Source of the DNA: a virus | Reading direction: 5' to 3' (one strand) | DNA: 64,000 bases | Virus record (IMG/VR): IMGVR_UViG_3300043446_003265 | Coordinates: 1-64,000 of that record | Shown: piece after piece, positions 3,196 through 53,866 of the stretch | How positions within the stretch are numbered: the first letter of the stretch is position 1 | How the letters are laid out: every line of letters starts with the position of its first letter | Notes under the pieces: generated by a model | The model's database searches: none | Seen by the model: only the letters and a program-made list of their open reading frames with translations | Told to the model about the DNA's origin: nothing | Made by a program: the position numbers and the translations under genes

Positions 3196-3813
3196 ATGAA
3201 TATTTATTCAAAACATAATTACCCTTTTGGATATTATGTATACGCATATCTGAGAAATGATGGGAGTCCATATTACATTGGTAAAGGGAAACATAAAAGA
3301 GCATGGGACAAAAATCATTGTGTATGCATTCCGAAAAATAGTAAAAGAATAGTAATCCTTGAATCTAATTTGACTAATATAGGTGCTTTAGCCCTTGAGA
3401 GAAGATATATCAGATGGTACGGCAGAAAGGATTTAAAAACTGGAATCTTAAGAAACAAAACAGAAGGAGGAGAAGGGCCATCATCAATCGATAGAATAGG
3501 AAATAGAAATCCTATGTTCGGTAAACCACAATCACAACACCAAAAACAAAACCAATCGTCAATAATGTTAGGTGTTCCCAAATCAAACATTACTAAAGAA
3601 AGAATGCGGGAAGCAAAAAGGGGACTTTATTTAGGGTTGACCAATCCTAATGCAGACTTTATAAAGTATAAATTTTTTAATAAAATCAGTGGTGAAATTG
3701 TAATCTGCACTCAATATGATTTTAAAATTAAATATGATTTGGATCAAGGCAATGTAAGCAAGTTAGTATCAGGTAAATATCACTCTACTAAAAATTGGGT
3801 AATAGTTAAATAG
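3196..3813 (+). CDS. Free-standing GIY-YIG homing endonuclease with NUMOD motifs
   Basis: A 205-residue protein. The N-terminus carries a GIY-YIG nuclease core (YVYAYL near residue 14, SPYYIGKGKHKRAW near 24-37). Next is a NUMOD3-type DNA-binding motif (GNRNPMFGKPQS, about 102-113), then helices and a C-terminal helix-turn-helix-like segment (DQGNVSKLVSGK, about 183-194). Such proteins cut a homologous allele lacking the gene and copy themselves in. It lies on the strand opposite to the head genes, between the small basic gene and the portal, and its 3' end overlaps the portal 3' end by 8 nt. Its own AAGGAG site and promoter-like element fit a mobile insertion. No intron boundaries are seen, so it appears free-standing. 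Confidence 0.88.
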   Translation: MNIYSKHNYPFGYYVYAYLRNDGSPYYIGKGKHKRAWDKNHCVCIPKNSKRIVILESNLTNIGALALERRYIRWYGRKDLKTGILRNKTEGGEGPSSIDRIGNRNPMFGKPQSQHQKQNQSSIMLGVPKSNITKERMREAKRGLYLGLTNPNADFIKYKFFNKISGEIVICTQYDFKIKYDLDQGNVSKLVSGKYHSTKNWVIVK

Positions 3814-5596: not shown

Positions 5597-8158
5597 TTAA
5601 TTGCTCATGTACAGTTTAATATCACTGTAAATGCTGTTACTTTCTAAGATTTTACGATTTAGACTATCGATTTTATCAAGTAAAACCTCTGCTAATTCAT
5701 TTGATTTAGGTATTAAAGGAGTACTAGAACTATTAATTTTTGGTTTAATGATTGATCCACGGGTAGTTGAAAAATCATTCATGTTGCCGGATTGTTTTAA
5801 TTCAATAGGAATAGTGTTTCCTTCCATGCCAACTTTAGCTTCTTTTCCATGCAGCTCAGTCCAACCAGGTCCAAACACTCCACCATCTTTAGCTTTTGGC
5901 ATAACGTGGACTGGATCACTTTCTATTGGATAATGCCTACGCAACCCAAAATCGTCAAGATAACCGTTTCTCTCTAACCAATCAAGTTGATCTTTGTTTA
6001 TATCTACCGCTGAACCAGAACCATGCCCTCCTGGAGTCTTAGATGGAATATACAACCATCCATATTTTTGTGTATAAACTTTAGGATTAGGATTAGTTTC
6101 ATTAGGATATCGTCCTCCTGCTGCTCTCCATTCATTGTACATATCAAGTTGTTCTTCATCACTTCTATAGGAACTTGTTATATTGAGTTTATTACCGGTA
6201 ACTTCAAAATATTTTCTTGCCATTGCCAAAACTTTTTCTTGAAAGTTTGGTTGTACTTTAGTCCAACGTTCTAAATCAGAACCTTTACCATCAATATATG
6301 TCTTAAAGGTTTCACTTCTACGTGTGTCAGCTTTTTCGCTTTCAGTTTTCTTACCTTCAGCTACTTTTTTATTTTTTACTAAATCTTCACGTTTTTTTTG
6401 TAGTTCTTCTGATGTTTGACCAAATTTTTGTTTTTCTTCTTTTTTACTTGTTTGTATATTTTCTTGGTACCTGTTAATATCACGGTCAGTCAAAGCCAAT
6501 TCGCTTGATATTTTTTCTTTTTCGGAAGCAGATTGTGTCTGTGAAATCTTGTTTTTCAATTCTTTTTGTTTAGCCAAAGCTGCCTGTAATTTCTTCTCAT
6601 TTTCTTTTTGAATGTCTGAAAAAACTTTTTGAGCATTAATTTGGCTATCAGTTTCTCTTATAGATTGATCGATATTTTTTATATAATCAGCAATTCTTGA
6701 TGTATCACCTAATGCAATTAGTGACTCATCTATTTTACTAGTATCTTGTCCTAATAACCATGCACCTAACTTAATTGTTCCAATCGCAGTTTGTTTTACT
6801 AAATCTGCTAATCTTCTCATTGCACTGTTAACAGGTTCTTGAATTACTGCAACTAATTTGTCTTTTGCGATACCAACGCTTTGTGATGTTTTAAAATTAG
6901 CAATCTGCACATCTTTTAATTGATCATCGACTTTTTGTCCTGCTTTTTCACCTTTTTGATATGCATTAACTTCGGCTCTAATTGCTTCCTGATTTTGCAT
7001 TTTAATAAGTTTTTCTGCTCCGTTTAACGCTTGCACATTTATTCCTGCTTTTCTTTGAAAATCAGTATTTTGAGCTAGGGCTTTTCGATTTTTTTCTTCA
7101 TATGTTAATGTAGCTTTTGCAATGTTTTGATTAAACTCAAATTGAGTAATTCTTCCTGCATCTAGGTCAGCTTTCCATTGTGTAATTTGACCGCCTGTTT
7201 GTACTAATAGAGCTTCTCCCTCTTTAGTTGTTGCTGTACCAGTAGCTAAAAAGTCACGTACTCCTTTAGCTATTTCTGGACCAAAGAAACTTTGAGCTAT
7301 TACTTCAGCTTCTTGATATTTGTCAGCTAACAACTTACCTTGTTCCGTTTTTCTTAGCAATCTCAATCTCATAGAAAATTGAATATCTCTTGTTTGCTCT
7401 GCAATTCTTGCAGAAACTTCCGTAATATTATCTCCAGTTAACCTTGACAGTGTAACAAGTGATGTAACATATGCTCTACTTTCATCTCTTAATTTTTCTT
7501 CATTTTTTTGATATTTTGTACCTAATAGTTGTGTAGTTGATACATACTCAGCCTGTAGATAAGCCAACTCAGATTGGCTTACTCCCAATCTCATAAACTC
7601 CTCTACAACACCATCACCTGTCCTAGCGATTTTAGCAAATTCACGTGCACCTAAATTTGTTGTGTCTCCTAAATTAGTAAGACCTGTGCCTAGTCTTTCG
7701 TAAGATTTTAACAGTCCTGAGTTATTTTTTGACCAAAATCCTGCTTCATTAGAAATTTTAGTAAAGCCCTCTGCAGTCGTGCCAATCCCTATTCCTAATT
7801 TTTGAACTGCATCAAAAGTTTGCAGTTGGGCATCGTTGCTTTCTAATACTGCATTTACCAATCCTCTAGCTGCTTCAATTGCCCCTAAGACAACTAATCT
7901 TGTACCTGGTAATTTATCTAAGGCAAATAAAGCAGTTCTTTTTAAAAATTTTGCTGAATCATCAACCGTTTTAGTGTACTTTGAAAAACTAACCTCACTT
8001 GACATTAATGCTGAACTTGTTGATTCAACTACATCCTTAAAACTATCAAGAACACTTGCTAATCCCCGTGAGGAATTGCCTACTGAGTTAATTGCAGTAT
8101 TGTAACGTTGTAATGATTTTGTTATTTCTTGTACTGAATCTGATGCATTATCTGCCAT
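5597..8158 (-). CDS. Tape-measure-like tail protein with C-terminal M15 peptidase
   Basis: An 853-residue protein. The N-terminal two thirds are helical and resemble phage tape-measure proteins, with a weakly hydrophobic stretch near 75-105. A Lys/Glu/Gln-rich coiled coil spans about 490-600. Residues about 640-755 form an M15/VanY-type D,D-peptidase: SSYRSDEEQLDMYN (about 660), the zinc ligands His and Asp in GGHGSGSAVDI (about 710) and His in DPVHVM (about 747). It probably sets tail length or fills the tube and cuts peptidoglycan at entry (inference). It is a paralogue of the upstream 710-residue protein: both share SSEVSFxKYxxTV, a following LGT/LGN region and a similar C-terminus. The stop-to-start gap is 3 nt. 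Confidence 0.75.
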   Translation of the reverse strand: MADNASDSVQEITKSLQRYNTAINSVGNSSRGLASVLDSFKDVVESTSSALMSSEVSFSKYTKTVDDSAKFLKRTALFALDKLPGTRLVVLGAIEAARGLVNAVLESNDAQLQTFDAVQKLGIGIGTTAEGFTKISNEAGFWSKNNSGLLKSYERLGTGLTNLGDTTNLGAREFAKIARTGDGVVEEFMRLGVSQSELAYLQAEYVSTTQLLGTKYQKNEEKLRDESRAYVTSLVTLSRLTGDNITEVSARIAEQTRDIQFSMRLRLLRKTEQGKLLADKYQEAEVIAQSFFGPEIAKGVRDFLATGTATTKEGEALLVQTGGQITQWKADLDAGRITQFEFNQNIAKATLTYEEKNRKALAQNTDFQRKAGINVQALNGAEKLIKMQNQEAIRAEVNAYQKGEKAGQKVDDQLKDVQIANFKTSQSVGIAKDKLVAVIQEPVNSAMRRLADLVKQTAIGTIKLGAWLLGQDTSKIDESLIALGDTSRIADYIKNIDQSIRETDSQINAQKVFSDIQKENEKKLQAALAKQKELKNKISQTQSASEKEKISSELALTDRDINRYQENIQTSKKEEKQKFGQTSEELQKKREDLVKNKKVAEGKKTESEKADTRRSETFKTYIDGKGSDLERWTKVQPNFQEKVLAMARKYFEVTGNKLNITSSYRSDEEQLDMYNEWRAAGGRYPNETNPNPKVYTQKYGWLYIPSKTPGGHGSGSAVDINKDQLDWLERNGYLDDFGLRRHYPIESDPVHVMPKAKDGGVFGPGWTELHGKEAKVGMEGNTIPIELKQSGNMNDFSTTRGSIIKPKINSSSTPLIPKSNELAEVLLDKIDSLNRKILESNSIYSDIKLYMSN

Positions 8159-8161: not shown

Positions 8162-10294
8162 TTATCGCCTTAGATACACTAACATGTCACTTTGCAATTG
8201 ATTATTTTTAGTTATGTTATCAAGTAAACTATCCATTTTGCTCGAAACTAAATTAAAAATATTACTTTTATCGTCTGAGCTTTGATTCACACTTAAATTA
8301 TTATTGACTTGATTTACATTATTTGTAACTGAGGAGGCATATCCACGTAATATACCATCTATGTTTTCAGATTCTAATAATGGATTTCTTCGTTTACTAC
8401 TCAACTGACTTGGTAAATTTTTGAAGGATACAGGAATACTTTTGCCATCCGGTAAAGGAACAACTGCTTGTAATTTATCATTTAGCATCTCTGGATAACC
8501 ACTCATAGGTCCAGAACTGATACCAAAATTTAAATTATTAGTAGTCGAAAATGTACCTCCTCCCGATCCTAAACTACTTCCTGAGGATGAACCACCTGTA
8601 GGAGTTATAGGTCTATCACTACCTGTAAGTTTTTTAAGTTGTTTTCTTATACCATCTATTTCTTTTTCCTGCAACTTTATTTGAGCGTCTATATAAGCCT
8701 TTTTAGCGATATCAGCAGGAGCACTTAAGTCTACACCCATTGCCTGCAAATTAGTACTTTTTTCTCTATCCTGATACAACTCAGCAAGTTTGCCCTGTCT
8801 TTCCGTCAGCATTTTACTTAATTCACCTGCGTCCTTAAACATATATGGAAATTCAGGATCAACTACTCCTAAGGTAGTTAATGTTTGCATAAATCCCTGA
8901 GTTAATTTATCAAGACCTTTTAACAAATATTCAAATGCTGGATTAACATATTCAGAAATAAGTTTTACCAAAGTTTGAAATGCAGTTTGAACTTCTAATT
9001 GAGTTTCTATGAGTTTTATTTGTGTTTCTTTAAGTCCACCATCCTGAGGTTTCATCGCTGCTTCTGTTTGACGCTTTACCAAGTCTTCTCTGGTATCGCT
9101 TAACTCTTTTGCGGCACCTCTTGCAGTTTCACTTGTAGCTCCCATGTTTTCAGCAAATTCTTTATTCCTTGCTGCAGTTTCTCCCATGTTCTTTTCAAAG
9201 TTTTCATAAGCCTGTCCATAACGCTTATTAAACTCCGTTATACTAATTTCTCCACTCTTAAATTGTTTTACCCATTTAAATATATCAGAACCTGCTACAC
9301 GTAACATAGCTTTAGCTTCGTCACTTTGAGCAAGACCAGTACTTAATATTTCTCTAAAACCTTTTTGTTTATCTGCGCCAAACTGTGCACCAACTTGAGT
9401 GACTCCACCCATTAGTCTGTCCATTACTTCTTGGCTCTTTGCTCCTGCTTTTTTACCTTCTTGACGCAACATTACATTGAAAGCATAATCTTTTAAATCT
9501 TCTGCTTGTTGTGCTTTAATAGCTTCTGGAGTTTGTCCTGTTAATGCTGCTAACTCCATTAATTGCTTACCGTAATTTAAACTATTTGCACGTAATGTTT
9601 TTAAATCATTTGTTCTTAGAACACCTAATTTAGTTTGATTTTTTATAAAGTCTGCTTGATTCTGTGTAATTTCTTTTTGAGAATAACCTAAACGGATTTG
9701 TTCGGCTCTTTGCTCTTTTGTTATTGTTGTAATATCAAAAAATGTTTTAATTCCTTGACCTGCGGTATTACCTAAATACGTTAAATCATTACCTAAACCG
9801 GTTGTTACTCCAACTAAATCACCAACTTTGTCTCCTAAATAACCTGTATTTTTAGTTAAGTCAAATAGTGCGTCAGCAGTTCCTTCTCCTGCATATCCAA
9901 ATTTAGCAAGAGTATCGTATGCGTTAAGATATTGATCATTCTGTTCAAATACACTTGTTACAAGTTTTCCTACAACATCTGTGACGGCACTCAATGCTTG
10001 ACCCAAAGGACCCATAGTGCTGAAAATAGAACCTAATCCACTTGTGACCTGAGATACTGTATTTGAATATTTTGTAAAACTAACTTCACTTGAGGTAAGT
10101 GAGCGATTAAACGATATTGCCCCAGAATATATTTGTTTAATTCCAAATGAAGTTTTTGAAATGTTTTCGCTAGTCATTCCTAATGACTTACCAACTCTTT
10201 CAAAAACTCCAGCACTGGCCGAACTTTGGAATGCAAGTCTATCTGCTGCTTCTGATAATTTGGCTAATTCTGCTCTTAATGCTGCGTCATCCAA
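8162..10294 (-). CDS. Tape-measure-like tail protein, paralogue without peptidase
   Basis: A 710-residue protein starting at TTG (10294-10292). This start is chosen because GGAGG lies 9 nt upstream and no in-frame ATG is nearby. It is mostly helical, with a Gly/Ser-rich linker (about 555-575) and an Asn-rich region near 650. It aligns by eye with the 853-residue neighbour: TSSEVSFTKYSNTV (about 66-79), an FEQND/LESND segment, IRLGYSQKE against MRLGVSQSE, and a matching C-terminus (SKMDSLLDNI, ending in a short hydrophobic-basic tail). It lacks the M15 domain. One of the pair may be the true tape measure (gp29 role) and the other a second internal or tip protein; the sequence does not decide which. 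Confidence 0.65.
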   Translation of the reverse strand: MDDAALRAELAKLSEAADRLAFQSSASAGVFERVGKSLGMTSENISKTSFGIKQIYSGAISFNRSLTSSEVSFTKYSNTVSQVTSGLGSIFSTMGPLGQALSAVTDVVGKLVTSVFEQNDQYLNAYDTLAKFGYAGEGTADALFDLTKNTGYLGDKVGDLVGVTTGLGNDLTYLGNTAGQGIKTFFDITTITKEQRAEQIRLGYSQKEITQNQADFIKNQTKLGVLRTNDLKTLRANSLNYGKQLMELAALTGQTPEAIKAQQAEDLKDYAFNVMLRQEGKKAGAKSQEVMDRLMGGVTQVGAQFGADKQKGFREILSTGLAQSDEAKAMLRVAGSDIFKWVKQFKSGEISITEFNKRYGQAYENFEKNMGETAARNKEFAENMGATSETARGAAKELSDTREDLVKRQTEAAMKPQDGGLKETQIKLIETQLEVQTAFQTLVKLISEYVNPAFEYLLKGLDKLTQGFMQTLTTLGVVDPEFPYMFKDAGELSKMLTERQGKLAELYQDREKSTNLQAMGVDLSAPADIAKKAYIDAQIKLQEKEIDGIRKQLKKLTGSDRPITPTGGSSSGSSLGSGGGTFSTTNNLNFGISSGPMSGYPEMLNDKLQAVVPLPDGKSIPVSFKNLPSQLSSKRRNPLLESENIDGILRGYASSVTNNVNQVNNNLSVNQSSDDKSNIFNLVSSKMDSLLDNITKNNQLQSDMLVYLRR

Positions 10295-10321
10295 GGAATA
10301 ATTCCTCCGTAAATTATGGAT

Positions 10322-10328
10322 CTAAATA
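10322..10328 (+). promoter_or_regulatory. Late-promoter-like CTAAATA (plus)
   Basis: CTAAATA 46 nt before the gp26-like ATG at 10375, which also has a GGAGA site. A divergent copy lies at 10338-10344 on the other strand. Confidence 0.4.
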
Positions 10329-10337
10329 TCTTGTTAG

Positions 10338-10344
10338 TATTTAG
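10338..10344 (-). promoter_or_regulatory. Late-promoter-like CTAAATA (minus)
   Basis: On the minus strand CTAAATA lies 43 nt before the TTG start of the 710-residue tape-measure-like gene. It probably begins the transcript covering both tape-measure-like genes. Confidence 0.4.
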
Positions 10345-10374
10345 TTATATTAAAATCACACTTTTGGAGAAAGT

Positions 10375-11205
10375 ATGTCAATAGAAAACAACCCGTTAAA
10401 ACAGTATTTCCGTAGACCTAGTATATATTTAAAATTACCTAGTAAGGGATTAGACTATGGCACTGATGTCATAAATTTACCTGAAAACGGAGAATTACCA
10501 ATCTATCCAATGACAGCAATTGATGAGATTACTAGCAAAACTCCTGACAGTCTATATAACGGTACCGCAGTTGCAGAAATAATTAGAAGTTGTGTGCCCG
10601 CTATCAGAGACCCATGGAAAATCAGTAGCACTGATCTCGACGCAATTCTAGTTGCTATCAGAATCGCCACAAATGGTAATGATATGGATATTGAAACTCA
10701 TTGCCCAAAATGTGATGAAGATTTTAAATATGGAATTAATTTATCATTTATTTTAAATAATTTTGTTGCAGGGGATTATTCTAAACCTACAGGTATCGGA
10801 GACTTACAAATAAAATTCAGACCCTTAAATTATAAAGAATTGACTGATAATGCTGTTAGACAGTTTGAAATACAAAGAGCGTTAACTGTCCTTACTGCTA
10901 TGGAAGAAGGACCAGAAAAAGATAAAAAATCAAGCGACTTATTCAAAACTATAGCTTTTAGTACACTAGAAATAATAGCGAGTACTATTGATTCAATATC
11001 CAATAATGAATTTACCGTAACTGAAAAAGCATATATTTTAGATTTTTTACAAAATACTGATAAAAGAATTGCAGAGAAAATAAAAGAAAAGAGTTTAAGT
11101 TTAAGAGAAACAACTCAAATGAAACCTCTAGAAGTAAAATGCTCTGGTTGTGGACATGATTACGAACAAATGTTTACATTGAATGTTAGTGATTTTTTCG
11201 TCTAA
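10375..11205 (+). CDS. 26: gp26-like baseplate hub / tail assembly chaperone (zero-frame product)
   Basis: A 276-residue protein of the T4 baseplate gp26 type. The family core is visible (LPSKGLDYG, about 21-29; CVPAIRDPWKISSTDLDAIL, about 73-92). A four-cysteine zinc ribbon is formed by CPKC (Cys110, Cys113) and CSGC (Cys256, Cys259). T4 gp26 has 208 residues and helps assemble the hub around the tape measure. The gene diverges from the two tape-measure-like genes, as expected for their chaperone. Its last codons contain a slippery T TTT TTC followed by a strong hairpin, and the -1 frame stays open into the next ORF. A longer fusion of about 351 residues is therefore predicted besides this form. 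Confidence 0.85.
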   Translation: MSIENNPLKQYFRRPSIYLKLPSKGLDYGTDVINLPENGELPIYPMTAIDEITSKTPDSLYNGTAVAEIIRSCVPAIRDPWKISSTDLDAILVAIRIATNGNDMDIETHCPKCDEDFKYGINLSFILNNFVAGDYSKPTGIGDLQIKFRPLNYKELTDNAVRQFEIQRALTVLTAMEEGPEKDKKSSDLFKTIAFSTLEIIASTIDSISNNEFTVTEKAYILDFLQNTDKRIAEKIKEKSLSLRETTQMKPLEVKCSGCGHDYEQMFTLNVSDFFV

Positions 11206-11249
11206 GGCTTCTATACCTTGACTCCGAAGGTATTGGGAAGCTGGTAGAC
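11193..11249 (+). promoter_or_regulatory. Putative -1 programmed frameshift site with downstream hairpin
   Basis: The heptamer T TTT TTC (11193-11199) is in the correct phase for tandem -1 slippage, one codon before the stop region of the gp26-like gene. It is followed by a nested stem: 11200-11204 with 11245-11249, 11207-11211 with 11237-11241, and 11213-11219 with 11227-11233, closing a 7-nt loop. After slippage the frame reads RLRLLYLDSEGIGKLVDG and runs without a stop into the ATG of the next ORF. The layout matches the tail-chaperone frameshift of other long-tailed phages. Confidence 0.7.
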
Positions 11250-11252
11250 GGT

Positions 11253-11429
11253 ATGGAAAAGGAGTGTAAAGCTATTAAGAAAAATGCACAAAGAATAGCT
11301 TGGTATATGCGTGGGTCAATCAGTTATACCGATGTATTAAACATGAGTCCATCTGAAATTGCTAGTTGTAATGAAATCATTGAAGAAAATTTAGAAACAA
11401 CAAAGAAAACTAATATTCCATTCTTTTAA
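11253..11429 (+). CDS. WYMRG-type small ORF, likely C-terminal frameshift extension of gp26-like chaperone
   Basis: A 58-codon ORF (ATG to TAA) containing AWYMRGSISYTDVLNMSP (about 16-33) and ending NLETTKKTNIPFF. I recall a similar WYMRG...ETTKK...PFF protein beside gp26 in other marine T4-like phages, where it may stand in for T4 gp51, but I could not check this. No clear Shine-Dalgarno sequence precedes the ATG, which lies just past a strong hairpin, so independent initiation looks poor. The reading frame is open upstream to the slippery site at 11193-11199, so the ORF more likely forms the C-terminus of a gp26 fusion with an 18-residue bridge. It could also be translated by coupling. Confidence 0.7.
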   Translation: MEKECKAIKKNAQRIAWYMRGSISYTDVLNMSPSEIASCNEIIEENLETTKKTNIPFF

Positions 11430-11853
11430 GATGAACTTCGTTCATCTAATTCCTTCGGTATTCACTCACTTCGTTCGTTCATACACTCGGAATTATTATA
11501 CTTAGATATTGCCGATTAGAAGCCATGGTAGTGCTATTCAGCACTACCATTGGTAAGTCACTTGCCATGACCGTCATCCATGTTGTCTATTCCCCACATA
11601 ACTAGCCCTTTCGCTGCTATGTGCTACCGGTTGCTCTGTAAAGTTTATTGGGACTGTAGTGAGATTATTCATCTCAGCAACGCATGTTTCATAATCGCAA
11701 GACAAAGTTAATTATGAACTCATTTAGGGTTCGCTCCATACGATTGCCCTATCGGTATTCCTTAGGATCACTCCTAAGCATACTCCAGATCCGTCGGCAC
11801 AGCACTACCTGTACTTCCTCAAGGAGGACCAACAACTTGGTCGTCTAATTGTG
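11430..11853. other. Structured non-coding region between convergent genes
   Basis: About 420 bases with no convincing ORF but at least seven strong stems: 11429-11447 (8 bp), 11447-11453 with 11489-11495 (7 bp), 11525-11535 with 11540-11550 (11 bp perfect), 11595-11600 with 11618-11623, 11660-11665 with 11671-11676, 11688-11695 with 11711-11718 (8 bp), 11761-11767 with 11772-11778 (7 bp) and 11827-11832 with 11837-11842 (6 bp). On the minus strand one loop is GTGA, a GNRA tetraloop, hinting at minus-strand RNA. The stretch looks richer in G+C than its neighbours. It may be a folded RNA, a decayed intron or a palindrome-ended mobile element; I could not assign a family. Confidence 0.6.
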
Positions 11854-12423
11854 TTAAATTTGAATTGTTAAGATTGAATCGCTTGACGTGGTGTCTGTTG
11901 GTTTGCCTGAGTAAGATTTTATAATATCTTTGTTTTGTGCCATAAATGTTTCAAAATGCATAATATACCAATCACCTACTCTTTTACTTCCATAGAAGAA
12001 AAAGTTATCAGTGATCCAAGTTAATTGGCATTGAACTGCTACAAATCTACCTATACGATTAAACTTCATAAAGAGTATGTTTAAATCGCCAGGATCTGCT
12101 ACTGCAAGTAATTGTTCTAGCCAACTATCAAGTACTTTATGTTCACCATTGAGTAACAAATGGAATGAAAAATCGCTGTAGAACTTACATTCTGCATTAA
12201 ATTTTGGAAAACTTTCGCCGGGTACTATGTCACCCTTAAAGCTACGAATTTGTCCTTCATGCAAAAGTTGGGTGCGATTTTGATTCTTGCCCCCTATGTA
12301 AGCACCAGAACCAGGAGCACGAATAAAACTTTCTCCATACATGTCGCTGAGATATTTAGCGATTTCTCGTTCAAATCCTGATCCTTTAGTTTTTTGTGGT
12401 GAGGGCATGTTGTTACTTATCAT
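11854..12423 (-). CDS. PD-(D/E)XK nuclease, Holliday-junction-resolvase-like
   Basis: A 189-residue protein. Near the N-terminus KGSGFEREIAKYLS (about 13-26) matches the start helix of archaeal Hjc-like resolvases. A conserved Gly-Asp (KGD, Asp65) and the motif ECK (Glu78-x-Lys80) complete a PD-(D/E)XK active site. It lies in a minus-strand recombination group with gp46 and gp47, 4 nt after the HAD gene, so a role in resolving or trimming recombination or replication branches is likely. T4 uses the unrelated gp49 (endonuclease VII) for this step, and no gp49-like gene is seen here. Substrate choice cannot be read from sequence; a different DNA nuclease role is possible. Confidence 0.7.
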   Translation of the reverse strand: MISNNMPSPQKTKGSGFEREIAKYLSDMYGESFIRAPGSGAYIGGKNQNRTQLLHEGQIRSFKGDIVPGESFPKFNAECKFYSDFSFHLLLNGEHKVLDSWLEQLLAVADPGDLNILFMKFNRIGRFVAVQCQLTWITDNFFFYGSKRVGDWYIMHFETFMAQNKDIIKSYSGKPTDTTSSDSILTIQI

Positions 12424-27559: not shown

Positions 27560-30500
27560 ATGGTAGCGCAAGTTAGAACAATTGATTTTCTTCCAGAAAT
27601 TTTTAAAACGACTCCTAATGAAAACTTTTTATCCGCCACATTGGATCAACTTGTTCAACAACAAGATTTAGAAAAGCTTCAAGGTTATATTGGCAGAAGA
27701 TTTGAATACGGGTTGACTCCAAACTCTTATTACATACCTGAAATTAATAAAACAAGAACTGATTATCAATTAGAACCTGCAGTTATTTTTAAAAAAAATG
27801 AAACAAACAGAGCATTAGATTTTATTACCTATCCTGAAATGATTGATGCCCTTAAACTACAAGGGGCGCCAGTCACAAATAATTCTTTGTTATTTAATAA
27901 TCAATTTTACAGTTGGGATAGTTTTGCAGATTTGGATAAATTGTCTAACTATAGTCAATATTATTGGTTACCTTTTGGACCAGATGTAATTAATATTGAA
28001 CCATTGCCTATCAATCTAACTTCCTTTTTTGATGTTAAAAGTCAAACTAACGAGTTTTTGTTTATACAAGACAATTTTTCTATTGAAGAATTTAACCCAA
28101 CAATAACATTATTACGTGGTGGAACATATTATTTTAATGTAGATCAAAATTCTAAATTTTGGATACAGACCGCTCCAGGTCTTTCTGGCGTGCTTCCAAA
28201 TAGGCCTAATGTAAGTACAAGAGACATTTTTGGATTAGAAAATAATGGCACCTCAGAAGGGGTGATGATTTTTAATGTACCATATGCAGACGCCCAGCAA
28301 TCTCAAAACTATACAGGAAATGTTAATGTCGATTTAGTTACAACTCAATTTTTTTATAATATACACGGACAAAGACTTAGCCAAATTGGAAATATTGATG
28401 GTGCTACAAATTTATTAGACAAGACATTAATGTTTTATGGTGCTCCGCCATTACAAATTACAGCAGTTGATACCTTTTATGACAACGGAGGTTTTGACGC
28501 AGTTAGCACTAACCCTGTAGGGTTCGATTCAGCTTCTTTTGTAAATGTAAGTCAGTATTTCTTCAAAATAACCTATGAAGAAACAGATGAGCCAGGTGAT
28601 CCAATAATTAATTTAACCCCATTAAATGTAATACCAACAAATACAAATATTACGGTATTAATTGGAAATCAATATATTTTTAAAAAATTTGTAAGATTAC
28701 AAACAGGAGAAATACAAATAATACCTGAAGTCACTGCACCCTTAGATACATTGTATTATCAGGACAGTGAAAATCTTAAAAAGATTGGCGTTATTAAAAT
28801 AGTAGATAGTAATGAAGCCAATTATATAAATGTTGAAACTGATATTTTAAACAAACTAACTTACATCTCACCAAACAACGTTAAATTTACTAATGGATTA
28901 AAAATAAGTTTTTCTGGTGACGTTGTACCTGAGAAATATAAAACGGATCAATATTATGTAGAAGGAGTTGGAACAGGTATTAAATTAATTTCAGCCTCTA
29001 CGTTAGTAACACCAGAATCGTATTCACAAAGTGTTTACAATCCATATGATGCTGCACCATATGATATTGCACCATATTCTGATATAGTTGAATCACCTAT
29101 AACACAAGATTATATCACTATTAACAGAGCAGCCCAAAATTTAAATGCGTGGACTAGAGGTAATAGATGGTTCCACTCACAGGTCATACAAGAAACTATT
29201 AAACATACTAACAGTAAAAATTTACTTAATGTTATTAATAGTAATGAGGCTAGAGCTAAAAGACCAATTATTGAATTTTACCCTAACTTAAAATTATTCA
29301 ATTTAGGCATTCAAGCAAAACCTCCGGTTGATTATTTTGATATAACTGCGACCGACGCATTTACACAAGTAGCCAGTCAATTACAGTATTATCCAGACGG
29401 CTTAAGTTTTGGATTGTTTGATGGTTGTAAGGTTATATTCAGTGCAGACACAGATGTAAATGTTAGAAACAAAATTTATAGAGTAAATTATATTTCCACG
29501 TCGGTTGCTACACAGACATCGACAGTAATAAGTTCTACTAGCGCCTCTACAGACAGACTTACTGTAACAGATTCTACAAGTTTTGTTGTAGGAAGTTTAG
29601 TTTCTTTAAATCAAAACATAGGCAATTTGACAGCATTTACAAAATACTATGTATATGATATACCAAATTCTACATCACTGCGCTTAAGCACAGATCCAAA
29701 TTTGTCTAATTTTATTCAATTAGATAATGCAACCGGCAATGTAGTAATAACTCAATCACCACCTGTAATAACACTTACAAAAATAGCTAACGGAGATGTT
29801 GAAAGTTTTGATCAAACCGTAGTATTGTTAGGTGAAGATAGAAAAGGATATACATATTGGTTTAATGGATCAACTTGGATACAAGGGCAGTTAAAAACAA
29901 CAGTAAATCAACCACCGCTGTTTGATATTTTTGATTCAAATGGATTAAGCTTTGGGGACACAGATTATTACAACAGTAGTAGTTTTATTGGAACTTCACT
30001 ATTTCAATATGCGACAGGTACTGGGAACAATGATCCTATATTAGGATTTCCTTTAAAATATAGTTCAGTAAACAACATAGGTGATATTCAATTTAATGTT
30101 TCATATAACACAGATAAATTTAATTATGTGTTAAATGGAATTCAAACAACACAGGATGTTAATACAGGATACATATATAATTATCAGTCTAAAACCGATT
30201 ATGTGAGAGAACTAGGCTGGCAAACTGCAATTTCAAATAGTATTCAATATCAAGCATTTAATTTTAATTATGACCCAGCAAAGGGCAGTCCAATTTTTAT
30301 TTGCGATGTACCAGCTAAATCCACAGATTCTACTGCATGGCCGGTAGTGCAAGTTTATGTTAGAGATAATATTTTATTTGATACTGAATTTACTTTTGCA
30401 GTGCAAGGAAATACAACGACAATAACTTTAAATTCTACTCCAATATTAGAAACGCCTATACAAATATTAATTTATAGTGATAAGGTAAGCACTACGGGGT

Positions 30501-33500
30501 ATTTTACGATACCAACAAACTTAGAAAACAATATCTTTAATGCGCAAATAGTGAGTCCTAATTTAGGAGACATAAAAAATCATTATTTGAGTATTTGTAC
30601 AAACAGTAAACGTATTGTTGGTCAAATATTTGGTGCAAATAATTACAGAGATTTACCAAACCTAGTAAGATATGGAACAAAAATAATTCAAAATAGTGCT
30701 CCTTTATCATTAACTGGGGCATTCTTAAAAAATGCAAACTTTAATTTAATTGATTCTCTTAACTTTAATTCAGTTGAATATATTAAATATAAAAGTCTAC
30801 TCATAGATGTGGTATCTAAAACACCATATGAAAGCTATCAAATAGCGTCAACTATATTAGATAACGCTATCAATGAAATAACTTCATACAAAACACAAAG
30901 CAATTCATTCTTTTGGTCAGATATGTTACCTAGTAAAGGAGCATATATAACCAATAGGTATTCTTTCAATGCCGATGTAAATCAATCGCAATTTTCTTTA
31001 AGCAAAATATATGATTTTACTTCAGCAAATTATAACTCTGTATTACTTTATCTTTTAAGAAATGTAAATGGAGTGTTAGTTCAGCGACAATTAATTAGGG
31101 ACGTAGATTATATAGTTAGTTCGGATCAACCCTTAGTCAACGTGTATACTGATTTGGTAATTGGAGACGTAATTGTTGTTAATGAATACAATCAAACATA
31201 TGGTAGTTATGTACCAAATACTCCTACAAAATTAGGATTTTATCCAGCAACAATACCTGAAGTTGTTTATGATACTTCTTATGTAAATCCTACTTGGTTT
31301 ATAAAAGGTCACGATGGTTCGTTAACAACATTATACGGTGAATATAAAAATGGATATCTAACAGATTATCGTGACCAAGTAATATTTGAATTTGAGTGCC
31401 GAATTTATAACAATTTAAAAGTAAGTTCTAAAATTCCAATTTCAAGTGATGAGGTTCTACCTGGACAATTTAGAAATACTGACTATAACTATGATGAAAT
31501 TTTACAATTGTACTCAATGTCCTTTTTAAATTGGGTAGGTCAAAATAGAATTGATTATAAATCACAATATTACAGTGCAACAGATGCATACACATATAAC
31601 TATTACCAAGCAACAAATAGATTAGATAATACTTTAGTAAAAAGGGGCAATTGGAAAGGATTATATAACTGGTTTTTTGACACAGTAACTCCAAACTTAA
31701 CTCCTTGGGAAATGATTGGGTACACCAATAAGCCTAAATGGTGGGATAGTTATTATGGATTACCGCCGTATACTAAAAATAACTTAGTATTATGGACTGA
31801 TATGGAAAATGGTTATGATTATAATGACGGAAATCCAATTATAATTGAATCAAGAAAAAGACCAGGACTCTTAAAAGTTTTACCAGTGGACGATTTGGGG
31901 AATTTAGTTGATCCATTAAATTCTGTTATAGGTAACTATGACAACTTGACGTTCCAAACACAATGGAAAGTTGGTGATTGGGGTCCTGCTGAATTTAGTT
32001 ATTTAAAGAGCAGTTCTTGGCCTTACGACTTGGTAAAAATTTTAGCGTTATGTAAACCTGCAAAATTTTATGCGTTGGGAGAAAATTTAGACACCTATAA
32101 ATTTAATGATGAATTTGATCAGTATCTAGTCAATAACAAGTTTAGATTTCAAACTACAGGATCTGTATTATACGGGAGCGGAACAGCACAGCATAGTTAC
32201 ATTAATTGGATAGTGGACTATGTTCAGAGTACAGGAAATTCAGGATATGATATTTTAACAGAATATCTTAACAATTTAGATGTAAGATTGGTTTATCGAT
32301 TGGCAGGATTTAGCGACAAAGAGTTGTTAAAATTTTATGTTGATAAAGGTTCCCCAACGAGCAGAAATAATAGTTTATTAATTCCAGACGAAAGTTATCA
32401 AGTCCTACTACATGAAAATCAACCTTTTGACACGATTGTTTATAGTTCAATTATAATTCAAAAAACTGATACTGGTTATCAAGTATATGGTAATAGTCAA
32501 AATAAAATTTATTTTAAAACATTTGCTCCATTGGTAAATGGAAAGTATGAAACCATAACATCTGGCTCATTGTCAGTTAGAATTTCAAAAAATTCAAGCG
32601 GTAAAGTTGTTATAGTTCCATATAGCACCGAGTTTTCTACACCTCAGGCACTTGCTGAATTTATTAATTCTTATGGTAATTACTTAAGTTCACAAGGCCT
32701 CGAATTTAATCAGGTTGAAAATAACCTCATTCTTAATTGGAATCAAATGATTCAAGAGGTTTTAGCTTGGATTCAAGCAGGTTGGGAAACAGGTTCAATA
32801 TTAAATATAAATCCTTTGGCTAAAAAAATTGTAATTAATAAAGAAAATGCTATTGTTCAACCTCTAACACTACAAGCTCAAAATTATGTATTAAATCAAA
32901 ATTTAATTCCAATACAAATTAAGGATATGTCAATTATTAGAAATGGAGTTGAATTTTCTGCGATTCCTATAAAGGTTGATGATACTATTGCATACTTTAA
33001 TGCTAATTTAAGTAATATCGAACACGCAATTGTTTTTGACAATGTAACATTGTTTAATGATTTAATTTATGATCCAAATACTGGCTTAAGACAATATCGT
33101 ATGTTGTTAAAAGGAGCAAAAACTGCAACTTGGGACGGCACGGTAGATACAAAAGGATTTATTTTAAATCAGGATAATGTTATAGATTGGCAGGCAAATA
33201 CCAAATATACAAAAGGCGTAATAGTAAAATATAAAAATAATTATTATGCTTCAAATGAAATTATTCAGCCAGCAGCCTCCTTTCAACAAAATCTTTGGAC
33301 AAAAGTAGACTATGATTTAATACAAAAAGGATTATTACCTAATGCAAGTAGCAGGGCATATGAGAGTACTTTATATTATAATTCGTACCAAGCAAACTTA
33401 GAAAATGACGCTGATTTATTATCTTTTTCTTTAATTGGATATAGACCAAGAGATTATTTAGCTGCTGCAAATTTGGATGACATATCACAAGTAAATCTTT

Positions 33501-36500
33501 ATAAGACAATGATTGTCGAAAAAGGAAGTAAACAAGCTACTTCTGCAATTCAAAACATTACGTTACAAACTGGTGGTATAAATTATACAACTTATGAAAA
33601 TTGGGCAATCAATATAGGAAATTATGGTGGTGTATTAGATCAAAATTTTATTGAATTTAAACTGGATCAACAAAAATTAAATGGAAATCCTGCTATTGTT
33701 AGTATCATAAAAGATGTTAATGAACCAGGTTCAATGCAAGAAATACCAATTTATGCTTTAAGTAATTACGGACGTGTTCCAAATAATATCAATATACTTC
33801 CACTTTTACCTTCTGGTACATTTAATCAATTACCATCGGCTGGATATGTGAATTTTGAAGATATTAAAACATATTCATTTAAAGTTGCAAATTTAAATCA
33901 AAATGAAGTTTCAATTTACGACATTTATAAAAACGAATATATTTGGATAGCAGATTTCAAAGGTGATTGGAGAATTTACGCCACAACATCTCTTAACGCA
34001 AACATTCCAGTTGCTATAATAAATGTAGTTAATAATTTAAATGATACTTGCACAGTATTTTTTGATAAACCGCATAATTTAGCAGTCAATACTGTGATAA
34101 TGATTTTGAATTATTCAAGCTTTGTAGATGGTTTCTATATTATAGTAAGAATTAGTGATGCAAACTCAGTTGTTATAGATTTAAGTTTGCCATTATCTAT
34201 ATCAAACATTGAGTCAACTGGAATAGTTGCAAAACTACAAAATCAAAGAGTTTCATCACCAAAAGATATTAGTAATTTAAATCTCATTGATACTGAATTT
34301 GTCCTAAGCACAGTATGGGTGGATGAAAACATTAATGGCACATGGGCAGTTTATAGAAAAGGTATCAACTATCAATTATCATCAAGTTTTAACAAGCCAG
34401 TGCCAACTTCATCTTTTGGAAGTAGTGTTGCTTTTGATGCTAAATTAGGTTATTTCTTAGGAGATTCAGGCACTGGAAATGTTTATAGATACAAATATGA
34501 ATCAAACATTAACTTTTGGAATTTAGACGAAACAATTACAATACCATCAAGCCCAACTGGGTTTGGTTCAAGTATGGATAAAAAACAAAACTTTTTAGCC
34601 ATATTAAAATCTGCAACAACCAGCATAGTTTACATTTATGAACTAGTTTCGACTGAAAAAATTGAAGCTGTTGCCCTACAAAATTCATTTAATATAAGCG
34701 GAAGTGGCGCTGCAGATAAAGTAGTGATGAGTGACGATTGTAATTACTTTTTTGTAGGTAGAGGTTCTACAAGACAAGTATTTGTGTATAGAAAAAATTC
34801 AAATTTAACTTTTACAAGTATTGGATATCCATTAACCTCTGCTATATCTGTTAACGGTAATCAATTTAGAGTTTCAGGAGATAGAAGATCATTATTATTA
34901 GAAGGACAAATGGTTAGTTTCTCTAATGTAAATGGATCAACAACCTACAAAATCATCACAGGAGAATTTGACGCAGGTAGTAATTTAACAACCTTTACCA
35001 TAGAAGGTTATTTCTTTGCAGGAGCTAATATAGGCACTACAGTTTACAGAGCCTATTATGACTATACAAATGTTGCAACAATTACCGGCGCAGGGTCAGC
35101 AACAAATTTTGGATCAAACATTTCTACAAATTACAATGGAACACAACTTTTCATAAGTGCGCCTAATCAAGACTTTAATGCTGTTACGGATACAGGAGTT
35201 GTATACATTTACAATAGAGTTAAACAAATATTTGAGTCAAGATTTACCCCCATTCAAACAATTGCTACTAGTTTTGCCTTAGCATGGACACCTACAAATT
35301 CTATAAGTGTATTTTTAAATGGTAATATTTTATCAAGTTCTAATTATACACTATCAACAAATATTTTAACAATTAAAGAACAAATTGTGTTGAAAGCAGG
35401 TGATTTAATATTGGTTGAAGGTAATGATTTTATTTTAAGTCAAACACTCATAGGACACAGCGAAGTTACCAATCCAAGAGTAGGTATACTTTATGGTAAG
35501 GGATTAAGTAATAATAACTTAGGTAATGAATTATTAGTAGGTTCTCCATTTGATATCGTAGATGCAACAGGAACAGAAGGTACAGTCTATAGATATACTA
35601 ATGCAGGTAAAAAGTTTGGCATAATCACTGGTTCTAGTGTTTACAATTTATCAAGTCAAATTAACATTTTAATTAATGGATTTGCGGTGACTTTACCTGC
35701 AACTGGAATTAATAATGCGGTTATTGCAATAAACGAGGCAAATATTCCAAATGTAATAGCATCAAAAACAAATGATAATAAACTTGTAATACAATTAATC
35801 AATCAAAGTTTAAATGTTTTGGAAGATAAACTTAATTTAACAGTATTCGCAGAAGCAAATTTTGCAAGTTTAGGTATAACTTTCTATAAAAAAACACAAA
35901 CTTTACACGATCCTAACATACAAAATAATACTCAATACGGAACATCAATAAAATTTAATGAATTAAATTCCTTTGTTGTGTCTGCTCCTACAAGTAATAG
36001 ATATACTCAAACGACATTTGATTTTACTGATGACGAAGATTATAGCAATGACACTATTTTTGATAATAACTTTACAGTGTTTACTGATGTTGTTGCAGAT
36101 GCAGGATCAGCATATGTATATGACTATTTAGGTGCGTACAACGAAAGTATAGACAATATTGGAAAATTTGTTCTTGGTCAATTAGTCAACGATACAACCA
36201 CAACTTTAGGCAGTGCCCCGTATTATGGAACTAATATTTCGTTTAATAATTACAACATTATAATTGGATCTCCCACATATCTAAGTGGTAGTCAAAATGG
36301 TAGAGTTAATATTTTTAGAAATACTTCTGGAAAACCTAATTGGTATATTTATAGAAACCCCACCAATACTGTAGACATAAACAAACTACATGGAGTTTCA
36401 ATATATAACAATTTAAATAATTTAAACATTGTAAGTTTAGATTATATTGATCCTTTACAAGGAAAATTATTAGGTGTTGTCGCACAAAACTTAGATTACA

Positions 36501-39500
36501 TATCAAGCGTAGACCCTGCAGGATATAATAATAACAATGTAAGGAAATCTGTTTGGGGACAAGAATACGTTGGAAAATTATGGTTCGACACATCTGAAAC
36601 CAAATTTATTGATTATCATCAAAATAACATTTTATATAATAGTAGATACTGGGGAACAGTGTTTCCAGGCAGCACAGTATCAGTCTACACGTGGATAGAA
36701 AGTGACGTTTTACCTATAGATTATACTGGTGTTGGTACTGTTTACGATATTGATGCCTACACAACATTAAACGAAATTGTTGAAAGTGGTACTATAGTAA
36801 CAAGATATTATTATTGGGTTAAAAATATTGGGACCGTTTTATCAAATGCAAAAACACTTGCGGATAATATAGTTTCATCCTACATTTCTAATCCTATTAC
36901 TTCTGGTATAGCTTTTTTAGCACCATTAAAACAAAATGTGTATGCTTTGTATAATGTGTTTGAATATATTAGTGCTACTTTTACAAGTTTGCATTTAGGA
37001 TATAAAACAGATAGTGGGAATGATGTTGCTCACACAGAATTTAAATTGATACGTGATGGGTATGCAGAAGATTTTCTACCTGGACTCCCCACATTGTATA
37101 ATAACCTAGTCACTCCTAATGGTTTATATCAAAAATTATTAGATAGTTTTTCAGGAGTTGATTTGTTAGGACAATCTGTTCCTAACCCATTTTTACCTAG
37201 ATTATTACAAACTGGCACTAATTTGCGACCAAGCCAAAGTTTTTTCTATAACAGATTACGGGCTTTGGAAAATTATGTGCAGTTTGCAAATAATGTAATG
37301 ATTAAGTTTCCTATAACTGAGTTGAAAAATCCTAGCTTCCTTACATTGGGAGGAGTGGCTACAACAGGGTTAAATGCTCCTGCGTTTTTCACACTTTCCG
37401 GAGATGATTTTGACACAAACAATTATTGGGAATATGTAAACTGGTGGGCAGAAGGTTATTCAGATTCAACAAGAACTGATATTGACGTTCCAAAATATTA
37501 CGATTTAGAAAAGTTAAATGCTTTTGAGAATATGATAGTTGGAGTAAATGCTAACAGTAACGGTAAGCGTGAAGTTTATTTATATCAAAATAATAATTGG
37601 AACCGAATCGGACTAGAGCTAGGGACAATTGCAATCAAAAAATCTCTCTATGATTATAGCATTAACGGAATAGGATTTGGGGACAGTTTTTACGATAGCA
37701 CACCTTATGACAGTTTCCCGTCAGTAGAAACCTACAATATCATACGTGGATTAAATGAAGAAGTTTTCACTGATGACCTATTAATTTATAGAAATCAAGG
37801 ACTAATTTTACTATTTCAATATATTATAACCGAAACAGAAGAATTTGGTAACTATTTACCTTGGTTAAACAAAACCTCATTTTTAGATGTAGAACACACT
37901 TTAAGAGAATTAGAGCAAACTAAAAATTTCCAACGTGACAATGAAGATTTTCTTTATGGATATATCAATGAGGTTAAACCATATAGAGTAAAACTTAAAG
38001 AATTTAGTTTAAAATATACAAAGACAAATCTATATGACGGAGATATTTCTGATTTTGATTTACCTGCTCAATGGAATGCAACACTTGATTCTTTTATTAC
38101 TCCTGAACTAGTTTTTAGTGACACGTTGCTAGAATCTCAATATAATTCTTCTGATAAAATATGGCAAGAACCACAGTATAATCAATGGTTTAATAACTAC
38201 GGAGTAAAACTGCAAGGAAAAGAAAATTATTTTATTGGTTTACTGCGTGAATATGTCCCAGTCGCAACAAAAATAATTGTTGTTGATAATGCATTTGGAT
38301 ATCCAACAGTAGGCGTGATTAAAATTGATAATGAATATATAGGTTATAACACAGTTGACAGAGATTTGGGAATATTATCTGGATTAACAAGAGGTGCATT
38401 AGATACTGAAGTTGTAGATCATTTTCCAGGAACAAAAATCTTTATAGATTTGCCTGCCGTAAGTGTTATATATGGTGGTAGAGGATACACAGAACCACCA
38501 AATATTGTAAGTTACGTAAATACAGAAGTTTTTCCTGCTCCTAAAGTACAAGCGTCCCTTAAGGCCCAAATGTCAGCAGGAGAAGTTGTTGCTGTTACTG
38601 TTTTAAATTCAGGTGAAGGATATAAGGTATTACCTGAGTTAATTATTGAACCGTCAATTGAACATAAATTTAATACCTCTGATATAAACTATACAAATTA
38701 TACTATAAACGTTCCATTTAAATTGTTTGAAACAGGAGATTTATTAAAATACAGTAAAGGTAGCAATTTATCAACTATTTTGGGATTAATAGATAATCAA
38801 TATTATTATATAAGATTAATTGAATATGGAACTAAAAAACCTGCAGTTACTATTGCAAATCAAAATAGACCTACTGCTATTGCATTTTACATTTCAAAAA
38901 TTAATGCTTTAACTGATACACATAGATTAATTTTAGTCCAAGGAAGAACTCCAAGTAATAATCATGTGTTAACATTAGGTGCTAGATTGGCTCCAATATC
39001 AAGTAATGCTCCTACAAGACAAATTACTCCTGTATTAAAATTTGACAGAACTAGTTATAGACCTGAGGTTACTGTTTGGGAGCCAAATCAATTTTACATC
39101 TCAACTTATAATAGCATAGGAAATGATGCAAGCTATGCAAGTAAGCTTGCTACTGCAATACCTTTCCCATCTGTTTCAGGAAACGTAAGTCCTGCGGGAG
39201 GATCAGGAGCTTTATTTGATGTATATGCTTGGATTTATGGTAACCAAGACGAGCCACCTGATTTTTATTCAACTGCCAATAACGTTGGTGTGTACACAGC
39301 AATTTTAAATAGTGGAGGATTAAATTATCAAGCAGGAAATGTAATTACGATACCAGGTAATTTATTGGGAGGAACTGCTCCTACAAATAGTTGTACAATA
39401 ACTGTTGTAAGCGTAACCTTAGCCGGATCAATAACACAATTTATTGTTGAAGGTGTTGCTAAACCTGTATTCTTGTCAAGCCTACAAGGGGCCACTGTTC

Positions 39501-42500
39501 CAATATCAGCAGTAACAACAGAATCTGGTACAAATAATGTCATTGTAACATTTAATTACACAAATACTAGTCTAGCAGCTGGATATCTTAATAAGACCAA
39601 ACTTTATTTCTATAAAGTAGCCAGACTTACAACTCCATATATCTATGATAATTCAGGTTCTGGTGGTGCCATTATTTGGGTTACTAGCCCAAGAATCTAT
39701 GGCACAACTGTGTCAAATGAGTATGATATTGACATAAAAGATTTTGGAAATATTTACACTACCGGAGACGTTATAACAATATCAGGAGCACTTTTGGGAG
39801 GCTCTTCACCGGCAAATGATTTAATAATTACTGTTACTTTTGCTTTATCCGGAGCCATAGTTTTTTATAGTTTAAGTGGTATATGTTCCAATGCATTTGA
39901 TGAATATTATACGATACCAATAAGTGCAACAAAATGCCGATTATTTTACGATGCAACGTTAATTAATCCTGTAAAAAATACAGGGGCTACTCCATTCATA
40001 TTTACCGCAGGAGATATTGGTTTTTATCCTGAACCATTCACTATTCCTGCAGCATCATTGGTCACTTATAATAATAAATTGTATAAGTGCATTGTGGCAA
40101 ATAGTGACGCAACTTTTGATTTTACTAAATGGGAGTTATTACAAAGTGATTACCCATTTATAAATGCGTTAGACAGAATTATTGCTTATTACCAACCAAC
40201 TATCAATATGCCTGGTAAACATTTACCATTATTAATGACAGGATTAGAATATCCTAATGGTACTAATTTAGGTAATAAATTTAATGATGATTTTGAATTA
40301 GATGTAATTTTACAAGGACAGCCGTTTTATCCAAAAGAAATTGATATAAAAAGTATAGTATATGACGGGGCCAAATATGTAGCAATTGGTAATGCAGCTA
40401 CGAATGCAACTGTTTTATATAGTATTGATGGTAGAAACTGGACATTTAAAAAAATAAGTGATACACCTATTAATGTGACTAGAATAATTTACTCAGGTTC
40501 TTTTTACGTAATTAGTGCATTGAATGCTAGTGCTCCTCTGCTCATAAGCTATGATGGATTTAACTGGGTAAGTGTAGGTTCATACACAGTTTATGATGAT
40601 GCTCCGTTTGATGTTGCAGGGTTTGATACCCTATCTGTAGAAACTCCTAATGATGAACTATACGATGTTGTGTACTACAATAATAATTACGTAGCTGTTG
40701 GTAATAATGTTTTGAGTAGTATTAATGCAACAAGCTGGGGAACAGGGTATAGTTTTGGCAGTAGATTACCAAACGTTTTAAAATCAGTTGCATATATACC
40801 AGGAGCTGACGCAACCAGTTTCGAAGGATTTATCGCAGTTGGAAATGGAACATCTATTATAGAAGGTCCAGACACTCCTTCACCAGTATTTGCTGACCAA
40901 GCTAGAGTCGTAATAAGTTACGATGGCATAACTTGGACCAATACTAATCAAACATTTGATGTAAATTTTAACACAGTATTTGGTTCAAATACAAAAATTA
41001 TAGCTGCAGGTGATTTTGGTAAAATTTACTGGTCAACCAACGCAAGCAACTGGAATGTAGCTACCATATTAGGACCATCGTTTAATCAACAAATAAATCA
41101 CGGCATTTATGCTCTAAACACCTATATAGTAATTTGTAATAATGGTTACATACTTTATAGCTCAGACGGAGAAACATGGAGTCAAACCTCACAAATAAGT
41201 TCAAATAATTTAAATGAAATTGAATTTGATGGCAATTATTTAATTGCAGTAGGTGAAAACTCAACAATTTTACGTAGTAGCAATGTAATAGATTGGGAAA
41301 ATATTTCTTTCCTAACTGCTAATGAACCTGAATATAACATAAAAGGAGAAACATTCTTATCAGGATATGGACCAGAAGAAATGGTACCAGCATTGATAAC
41401 AGATAATCTTCAGCTTACAGTAAAGACTACACCTGGATCACTTTGGGATCCTACTGTATACGAAAATTTTGGATTTTATGTAAATAGCGGAATATTTGAT
41501 TTAGGTAACTCTACTGCATTTAGTTTTGCTAATTTATCACCATACGCAACACAAATTGCAGTTTATATAATTTCGAATACTAATAATAGAGCAACACGCA
41601 TTTACACTGTTAATCAAGTGCCTACCCCTACAAGTTTAGTTAAAATACAATCAATAGATTGGGTTTTTAAGGTTGTAACATTAACTTCACCATTAAGTCC
41701 TACAGAAAAAATTTATTTTGAAGTCTATAGTTTAGGAGGCGGAAATCAAGAAGTTAAAGGTACATCTGATAATGTTCCTGTTAAGTTTGATGCAAAGAAA
41801 AATGTAAGTTACATAGACACAAATTATCCATATAAAGATGGAGTATATTTATTTCCAGTAGTGTATATTAATGGGGTTAAAAAAATAAACAATGTTGATT
41901 ATAAAATAGAACCAAATAAATCAAATGCAATTACCATTGTTTTTACATCTATTATTAATTTAGCTACTCAGTATGTTAGTTTTGCAATTTACGGCCCTGC
42001 AAACACAATATATCAATATTGTATGCCTGAAACTCAAGTTTTTCAGTACGTAAGTGGACCAAAAACTTTTACATTAACTAACAATATGGGAGGAAACAAT
42101 CCTAACAATGCGGTAGTTGAAATTGATGGAATACGTGCAAGAAATACTATTGACTACACAATTGTTGGAACTACATTAACTGTTATACCATCAATTGCTG
42201 CTAATACAATAGTTAGTGTAACTTCATTTAACGATACTCAAAATCAATTTTTCGTAACGCAAACGTCAACATCTATAAGAGTAACTCCAATTTATTATAT
42301 AAATACTCCTGCTACACCTGTTGTAGTTACAACAGCTACAAATGCTTTTTTCGTAAATCAAGATCAAGTATTAATAGATGGAGTTCAAAATATTACTGAA
42401 ATTAATAATAATATTTTTTATGTAAGAGTTTTGCCAACATATGTTGAGAATGCAGTTACATATTATAGATATGAGCTTTATAGTGATTTTAATCTTTCAG

Positions 42501-53335: not shown

Positions 53336-53485
53336 ATGATTATTTGTGTTTGTAGAAATATTAAAGAATCAGATTTTAAGACAAAAGAGGAATTAATTCA
53401 GCGTATTTTTGAGCTGGATCATAGGTGTGGGCAATGTCAAGTATATTGTCAACAGCTTAAAGAATTGTTGTATGAAGTTGAATGA
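53336..53485 (+). CDS. BFD-like [2Fe-2S] mini-ferredoxin
   Basis: A 49-residue protein with the cysteine pattern of the bacterioferritin-associated ferredoxin fold: CVC at the N-terminus (Cys4, Cys6) and CGQC near residue 31 (Cys31, Cys34), with an extra Cys38. E. coli Bfd starts in the same way and has its second pair at Cys38/Cys41. Bfd releases iron from bacterioferritin by reduction; BFD-like domains also serve as electron donors or scaffolds elsewhere. The phage copy is only the fold, with no extra domain. It might mobilise host iron or serve the radical SAM enzyme upstream (speculative). The stop lies at the edge of the tmRNA acceptor piece. Confidence 0.65.
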   Translation: MIICVCRNIKESDFKTKEELIQRIFELDHRCGQCQVYCQQLKELLYEVE

Positions 53486-53527
53486 AAGGTGTTCTGGACC
53501 CCGGTTCGACCCCGGGCAGGTCCACCA
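53486..53527 (+). ncRNA. ssrA: tmRNA acceptor piece (3' half) of a permuted two-piece tmRNA
   Basis: Contains a T-arm (stem 53500-53504 with 53512-53516, loop TTCGACC), the acceptor 3' strand CAGGTCC (53517-53523) and encoded ACCA (53524-53527). The matching 5' strand GGGCCTG lies downstream at 53617-53623, not upstream, so the gene is circularly permuted. The 5' end of this piece is approximate. An ordinary tRNA is excluded because no D-arm, anticodon arm or 5' acceptor strand precedes it. Confidence 0.85.
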
Positions 53528-53540
53528 TAAGGAGATTAGA

Positions 53541-53615: not shown

Positions 53616-53616
53616 T

Positions 53617-53804: not shown

Positions 53805-53866
53805 AATTTACATTTATCAGTAATGTATTTGTTTAATCAAATTAAAAAATATGAAAATTTAAATTA

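Follow-up and report, generated by a model that had tools for sequence, protein, structure and literature searches.

An uncultured T4-like phage very probably makes two proteins from one tail assembly chaperone (TAC) gene, the longer of them through a −1 slip on the heptamer T_TTT_TTC that is aided by a hairpin. The gene was studied in a window of 64,000 nucleotides, positions 1–64,000 of the virus record IMGVR_UViG_3300043446_003265. Its zero frame (10375–11205, plus strand; GGAG 5′ of the ATG) encodes a T4 gp26-type protein of 276 aa, and an extension of 76 codons lies in the −1 frame (11199–11429, plus strand; RLRLLYLDSEG...TNIPFF and a stop). The zero-frame protein (TAC-N) and the joint product (TAC-NC) are best read as the short and long tail assembly chaperones, with 276 and 351 aa, respectively. 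We infer the occurrence of slippage, its efficiency and the chaperone role from the comparisons presented below.

The heptamer occupies 11193–11199 on the plus strand and lies in phase just 5′ of the gp26-like stop, as described in an earlier note on this DNA. Read from 10375, the zero frame ends GAT(11191) TTT(11194) TTC(11197) GTC TAA(11203), with a single codon separating T_TTT_TTC from the stop. The −1 frame, likewise described there as open up to 11429, has no stop from 11193 to 11426 and closes at 11427–11429 after the 76 codons. Because the −1 codons directly 5′ of the heptamer are the stops TAG TGA, a slip on the heptamer is the sole join of the two frames; the same −1 stops stand directly before the heptamer in many relatives too. 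The window holds 222 in-frame X_XXY_YYN heptamers, spread over 38 ORFs, and T_TTT_TTC is the only one with a −1 frame of at least 50 codons beyond the stop (73 codons; runner-up, 21). Phe codons in the window are TTT:TTC = 679:118, yet the slip site reads TTTTTC, whereas Phe-Phe codon pairs elsewhere are for the most part TTTTTT or TTCTTT.

Relatives were collected from viral contigs (49 loci with 33–92% identity, 47 of them complete across the junction) and from named phages, giving a conservation set of 67 loci, the window included, with 54 distinct extensions and protein identity down to ~25%. An in-frame T TTT TT(C/T) followed by an open −1 extension was found in 67 of the 67 loci examined, a count that conveys breadth and not significance, because the loci do not represent independent events. 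The heptamer is TTTTTTC in 65 of the 67 and TTTTTTT in two (CM1 and XacN1), and the extension is 58–81 codons long. Among the phages that keep this arrangement are 19 named isolates, including RaK2, 121Q, GAP32, CBB, PA5oct, Atu_ph07, Phosso, SCTP-2, Munch, XacN1, Sf-FS3, phiAS5 and IC12. Among cyanophage-type gp26 genes, surveyed separately, 72 of 73 loci have the heptamer. Several relatives carry their zero-frame stop as much as 30 nt farther downstream, with the heptamer and the −1 extension in place; as the stop shifts while these two stay, it is the heptamer, not the stop, that is held. The in-phase X_XXY_YYZ heptamer is conserved beyond codon bias, and its presence together with the extension in all 67 loci gives good support to the −1 programmed frameshift proposed in the earlier note.

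From the heptamer on, the extension shows conservation at the protein level. With the 76-aa extension as the query, tblastn matched Atu_ph07 (E = 7e-9) and Phosso (E = 8e-8) over the full length, including the bridge, and residues R1, L4 and L5 are invariant in an alignment of 31 extensions. All three lie upstream of the only candidate ATG in the window, at codon 19. By a crude Nei–Gojobori count, dN/dS was 0.34 for the bridge (codons 1–18), 0.36 for the rest of the extension and 0.42 for the 3′ end of gp26. Synonymous divergence was lower in the bridge (0.57 versus 0.76), as expected under RNA structure. The poor start site ascribed to the 58-codon ORF (ATG 11253) was evident from the lack of a Shine–Dalgarno-like motif upstream; 3 of the 54 extensions have such a motif before their first ATG, and then just AAGG. 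The extension was modeled as a small helical domain (pLDDT 83). Searches with it returned chance-level matches only in Pfam and nothing informative in PHROGs, and Foldseek against BFVD gave as the best match a 72-aa uncharacterized phage protein (E = 7e-3), with the Moogle 'Tape measure chaperone' at E = 1.6 only.

A nested hairpin at 11200–11249 on the plus strand, a probable frameshift stimulator, follows the heptamer directly, and its best-conserved stem, of 7 bp, begins 6 nt past it. Folding bore out this element of the earlier note, giving 19 pairs in nested stems and, for the 73-nt stretch 11193–11265, a ΔG of −25 kcal/mol (z = −3.1). In a second assay, synonymous codons were randomized from the codon pool of each locus and compared with the natural 53 nt 3′ of the heptamer. 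The window locus gave z = −6.6. Of 30 distinct window-clade loci, 27 folded more stably in natural than in randomized form (mean z over the 30, −4.2), while a control stretch within the same extension gave z = −0.3. The window structure paired 76.8% of cells over 30 sequences compared to 40–50% for slid versions, and its covariation was 0.224, a value that in the slid versions never exceeded 0.119. Columns 19–45 and 24–38 show double changes, for example from CG to UA. These results support selection on the stem in the window clade. The remaining 22 loci, outside the clade, had a mean z of −0.7, and the comparison suggests that the stem was absent from the ancestral mechanism. The hairpin was rejected as a family-wide feature, as it is missing in most relatives outside the clade; its absence from the RaK2/121Q group indicates that it is not needed across the family. 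Of the heptamer and stem whose conservation the earlier note had proposed to test, the heptamer is kept in all 67 loci and the stem mainly in the window clade. Rfam searches of 10300–12000 returned no real RNA family. Downstream of the chaperone gene lies an intergenic stretch of 424 nt (11430–11853) that opens with a GATGAAC-TTC-GTTCATC hairpin and likewise matches no Rfam family.

TAC-N matched PF12322 (T4_baseplate) with E = 4e-20 and 72.8 bits (cut-off, 24.5) and phrog_150 (baseplate hub) with E = 5e-21. The best viral structural match of its AlphaFold model (pLDDT 86) was 'Baseplate hub assembly protein, T4-like' (TM 0.90). Sequence-profile comparison with the PDB found no relative, Foldseek with TAC-N found no significant match there, and a plasmid collection contained no gp26-type match; the VIA-align comparison with the HK97 TAC (2ob9_B) was within noise (Z 5.9; r.m.s.d. 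6.5 over 86 residues). Sixteen records with the frameshift gene, among them five possibly incomplete virus contigs, each carry a single PF12322 copy, compared to two in T4 (gp26 and gp51); in SCTP-2, PF12322 was not detected at the sensitivity used. None of these phages combines the two designs, the short and long forms being supplied in the 16 records by a single frameshift gene and in T4 by a pair of PF12322 genes.

By hhalign, gp26 matched gp51 at 99.4%, the cyanophage fusion matched gp51 at 99.4% over the full length (E = 3e-21), the window fusion matched the cyanophage fusion at 97.6% (E = 4e-12) and the window extension matched the gp51 C terminus at 89%. The gp51 profile also matched the cyanophage and phiAS5 extensions at gp51 positions 185–252. 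Because the direct profile match between window-clade and cyanophage extensions is weak (2.8%), the link between them is carried by the full-length fusions and gp51. The profile comparisons identify T4 gp51 as a natural single-frame counterpart of the long product and gp26 as one of the short product. The single fused ORF that the earlier note had envisaged in relatives thus exists, as T4 gp51 and its relatives consist of a gp26-like domain and a C-terminal extension in one frame. Pseudomonas phage Cygsa01 (L075, 4290–4482) is a third arrangement, in which coupling has naturally replaced frameshifting: it has no standard heptamer (ATT TTC), and its extension is an ORF coupled through TAATG.

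Vladimirov, Gautam and Davidson (Virology 2022, 566:9–15) reportedly identified the TAC genes of T4-like phages; their abstract is said to describe frameshifting as conserved in several T4-like groups and T4 as using genes 26 and 51. In the passages that refer to this work, the PRFect paper describes some T4-like phages as having a short gene and a fused long gene with no frameshifting (PMC10885494), and this work is the source given in the phage Adele paper for T4-like TAC-N genes with poly-T −1 signals (PMC12846349). A 2016 review lists T4 as an exception to the conserved frameshift (PMC5009743). Going by the citing papers, the earlier remark that such a pair was not known to be described for T4-like phages is outdated: short and long T4-like TACs were published in 2022, frameshift-made chaperones in T4 relatives have been known since then, and the window locus is a well-supported further case.

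The T4-like TACs (gp26/gp51) share with the window gene PF12322 and the pairing of a short form with a C-terminally extended long form, and those of T4-like groups have, per the citing papers, a poly-T −1 site as in the window. T4 uses two genes (26 and 51) and no frameshift, whereas the window phage uses one frameshift gene; the latter also differs in its uncultured lineage, its clade-specific hairpin and the two paralogous tape-measure-like genes alongside. The hairpin is the main detail added to the known systems and the duplicated tape-measure-like genes beside the chaperone gene are another, both of them minor. The TAC of Pseudomonas phage Adele and the Vandenendeviridae (PMC12846349) resembles that of the window as a myophage TAC in which a poly-T −1 site is conserved and the ORF downstream is misannotated; its motif is GTTTTT instead of T_TTT_TTC. 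Lambda gpG/gpGT (Xu et al. 2004) comprises a short chaperone and a minority −1 product with a C-terminal domain, as proposed for the window, and both systems adjoin tape measure or tape-measure-like genes. The lambda genes are co-directional with the tape measure gene and just upstream of it, whereas the tape-measure-like genes of the window are divergent, on the other strand. Because of this placement, the window pair is taken to work like G/GT without being of the lambda type. Read in this way, the G/GT-like pair of the earlier note is well supported.

Other explanations were weighed against hairpin-aided frameshifting. It is very improbable that the downstream ORF yields a small protein of its own, through initiation at ATG 11253 or coupled re-initiation, with no fusion. 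Many close relatives do have an ATG at the 11253 position, public records annotate the ORF as a gene of its own, and Cygsa01 combines a coupled ORF with the loss of the standard heptamer. However, 11253 is without a Shine–Dalgarno motif, the codons 5′ of it are conserved as protein, and the extension lacks any ATG in four distant loci (L046, L047, PAC2 and PA5oct); a separate protein would also leave the invariant heptamer and the codon-independent hairpin unexplained. The 58-codon WYMRG ORF, which the earlier note treated as a short partner in its own right, is instead read as the C-terminal part of the frameshift product. Transcriptional slippage, by RNA polymerase rather than the ribosome, appears marginally less probable still. 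It could draw on the run of six T, which grows to seven in CM1 and XacN1, but six T are short for efficient bacterial transcriptional slippage, the run is held as in-frame T6C in 65 of 67 loci, as a tandem −1 tRNA slip needs, and the hairpin spacing is typical of ribosomal stimulators. That an ordinary single gene was split by misreading or misassembly of the T run can practically be dismissed: homopolymers are error-prone and single-frame fusions of the gp51 type are known, but the identical split, with its stop kept, recurs in all 67 loci from independent assemblies and isolates, which rules out the error that the earlier note had considered.

The function of the products is a separate matter. 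It is unlikely, though less so than the preceding alternatives, that the frameshift is real and yields structural baseplate-hub proteins instead of tape-measure assembly chaperones. PF12322 and phrog_150 are named for the baseplate (hub), and genetics cited in PMC3004832 place T4 gp26 in the hub. In the same review, however, gp26 and gp51 appear among the chaperones of hub assembly, and gp51 is described as absent from the particle (PMC3004832); a short/long frameshift design is a hallmark of TACs, and Vladimirov et al. 2022 call these proteins TACs, according to the citing papers.

Under the favored frameshift reading, most ribosomes would stop at 11203 and release TAC-N (276 aa). A minority would slip by −1 on T_TTT_TTC through a tandem tRNA-Phe shift (UUU UUC to UUU UUU), helped by the hairpin, and produce TAC-NC, in which 275 TAC-N residues are followed by 76 from the −1 frame (10375–11199 joined to 11199–11429; 351 aa). 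If the pair behaves like lambda gpG/gpGT, TAC-N would coat or hold the tape measure, the TAC-C part encoded by the extension would recruit tail tube subunits, and TAC-N and TAC-NC would both leave before the tail is completed. Points against this scheme are that the chaperone gene is divergent from the tape-measure-like genes and not upstream of them, that the RaK2/121Q group lacks the hairpin and that the resemblance to the HK97 TAC stays within noise.

Those genes encode structural proteins A (853 aa, 5597–8158) and B (710 aa, 8162–10294), both on the minus strand. They are paralogs (E = 6e-37; 29.6% identity over A46–450), and A carries a VanY/M15-like peptidase domain, with residues 630–751 matching phrog_2649 endolysin (E = 7e-6) and, weakly, Pfam VanY. 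B holds the position of the 'virion structural protein' of RaK2, 121Q, GAP32 and PA5oct, phages that have a single structural protein where the window has A and B; in the RaK2 record, that protein is annotated as similar to tape measure protein. Of the two divergent tape-measure-like genes pointed out in the earlier note, the pairing and orientation were confirmed, and their role as tape measures is putative. Both tandem paralogous genes are present in the close relatives (L001–L009). Between the portal and gp26 genes, one ORF is found in G001, G002, G004 and G005 and two in G003.

Additional features were noted elsewhere in the window. An ORF adjoining the portal gene (3196–3813, plus strand) has a homing-endonuclease-type match (phrog_314, E = 3e-8). 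A single ORF of 5,284 codons (27560–43414, plus strand) takes up about a quarter of the window, with only a sub-threshold Pfam match to CBM_5_12. The phage also encodes a permuted tmRNA (53415–53836, plus strand; Rfam beta_tmRNA, E = 7e-37; ARAGORN tag ANAANDEVFALAA), which suggests a betaproteobacterial host.

Frameshift-made chaperones would thus be widespread among jumbo and uncultured T4-like phages, accounting for the ORFs 3′ of gp26 that are recurrently misannotated as 'hypothetical' or 'baseplate hub assembly catalyst'. Frameshift, coupled ORF and duplicated genes form a clean comparative set for how the short:long ratio is set, and the clade-specific hairpin is a testable case in which a stimulator was gained or lost while the slippery site stayed fixed. 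A more speculative idea, and one we consider rather doubtful, is that one chaperone pair serves two paralogous tape measures, one with a peptidoglycan-peptidase domain, at an efficiency tuned by the hairpin that distant relatives lack. If this were true, tails in this phage clade would be assembled around two distinct rulers.
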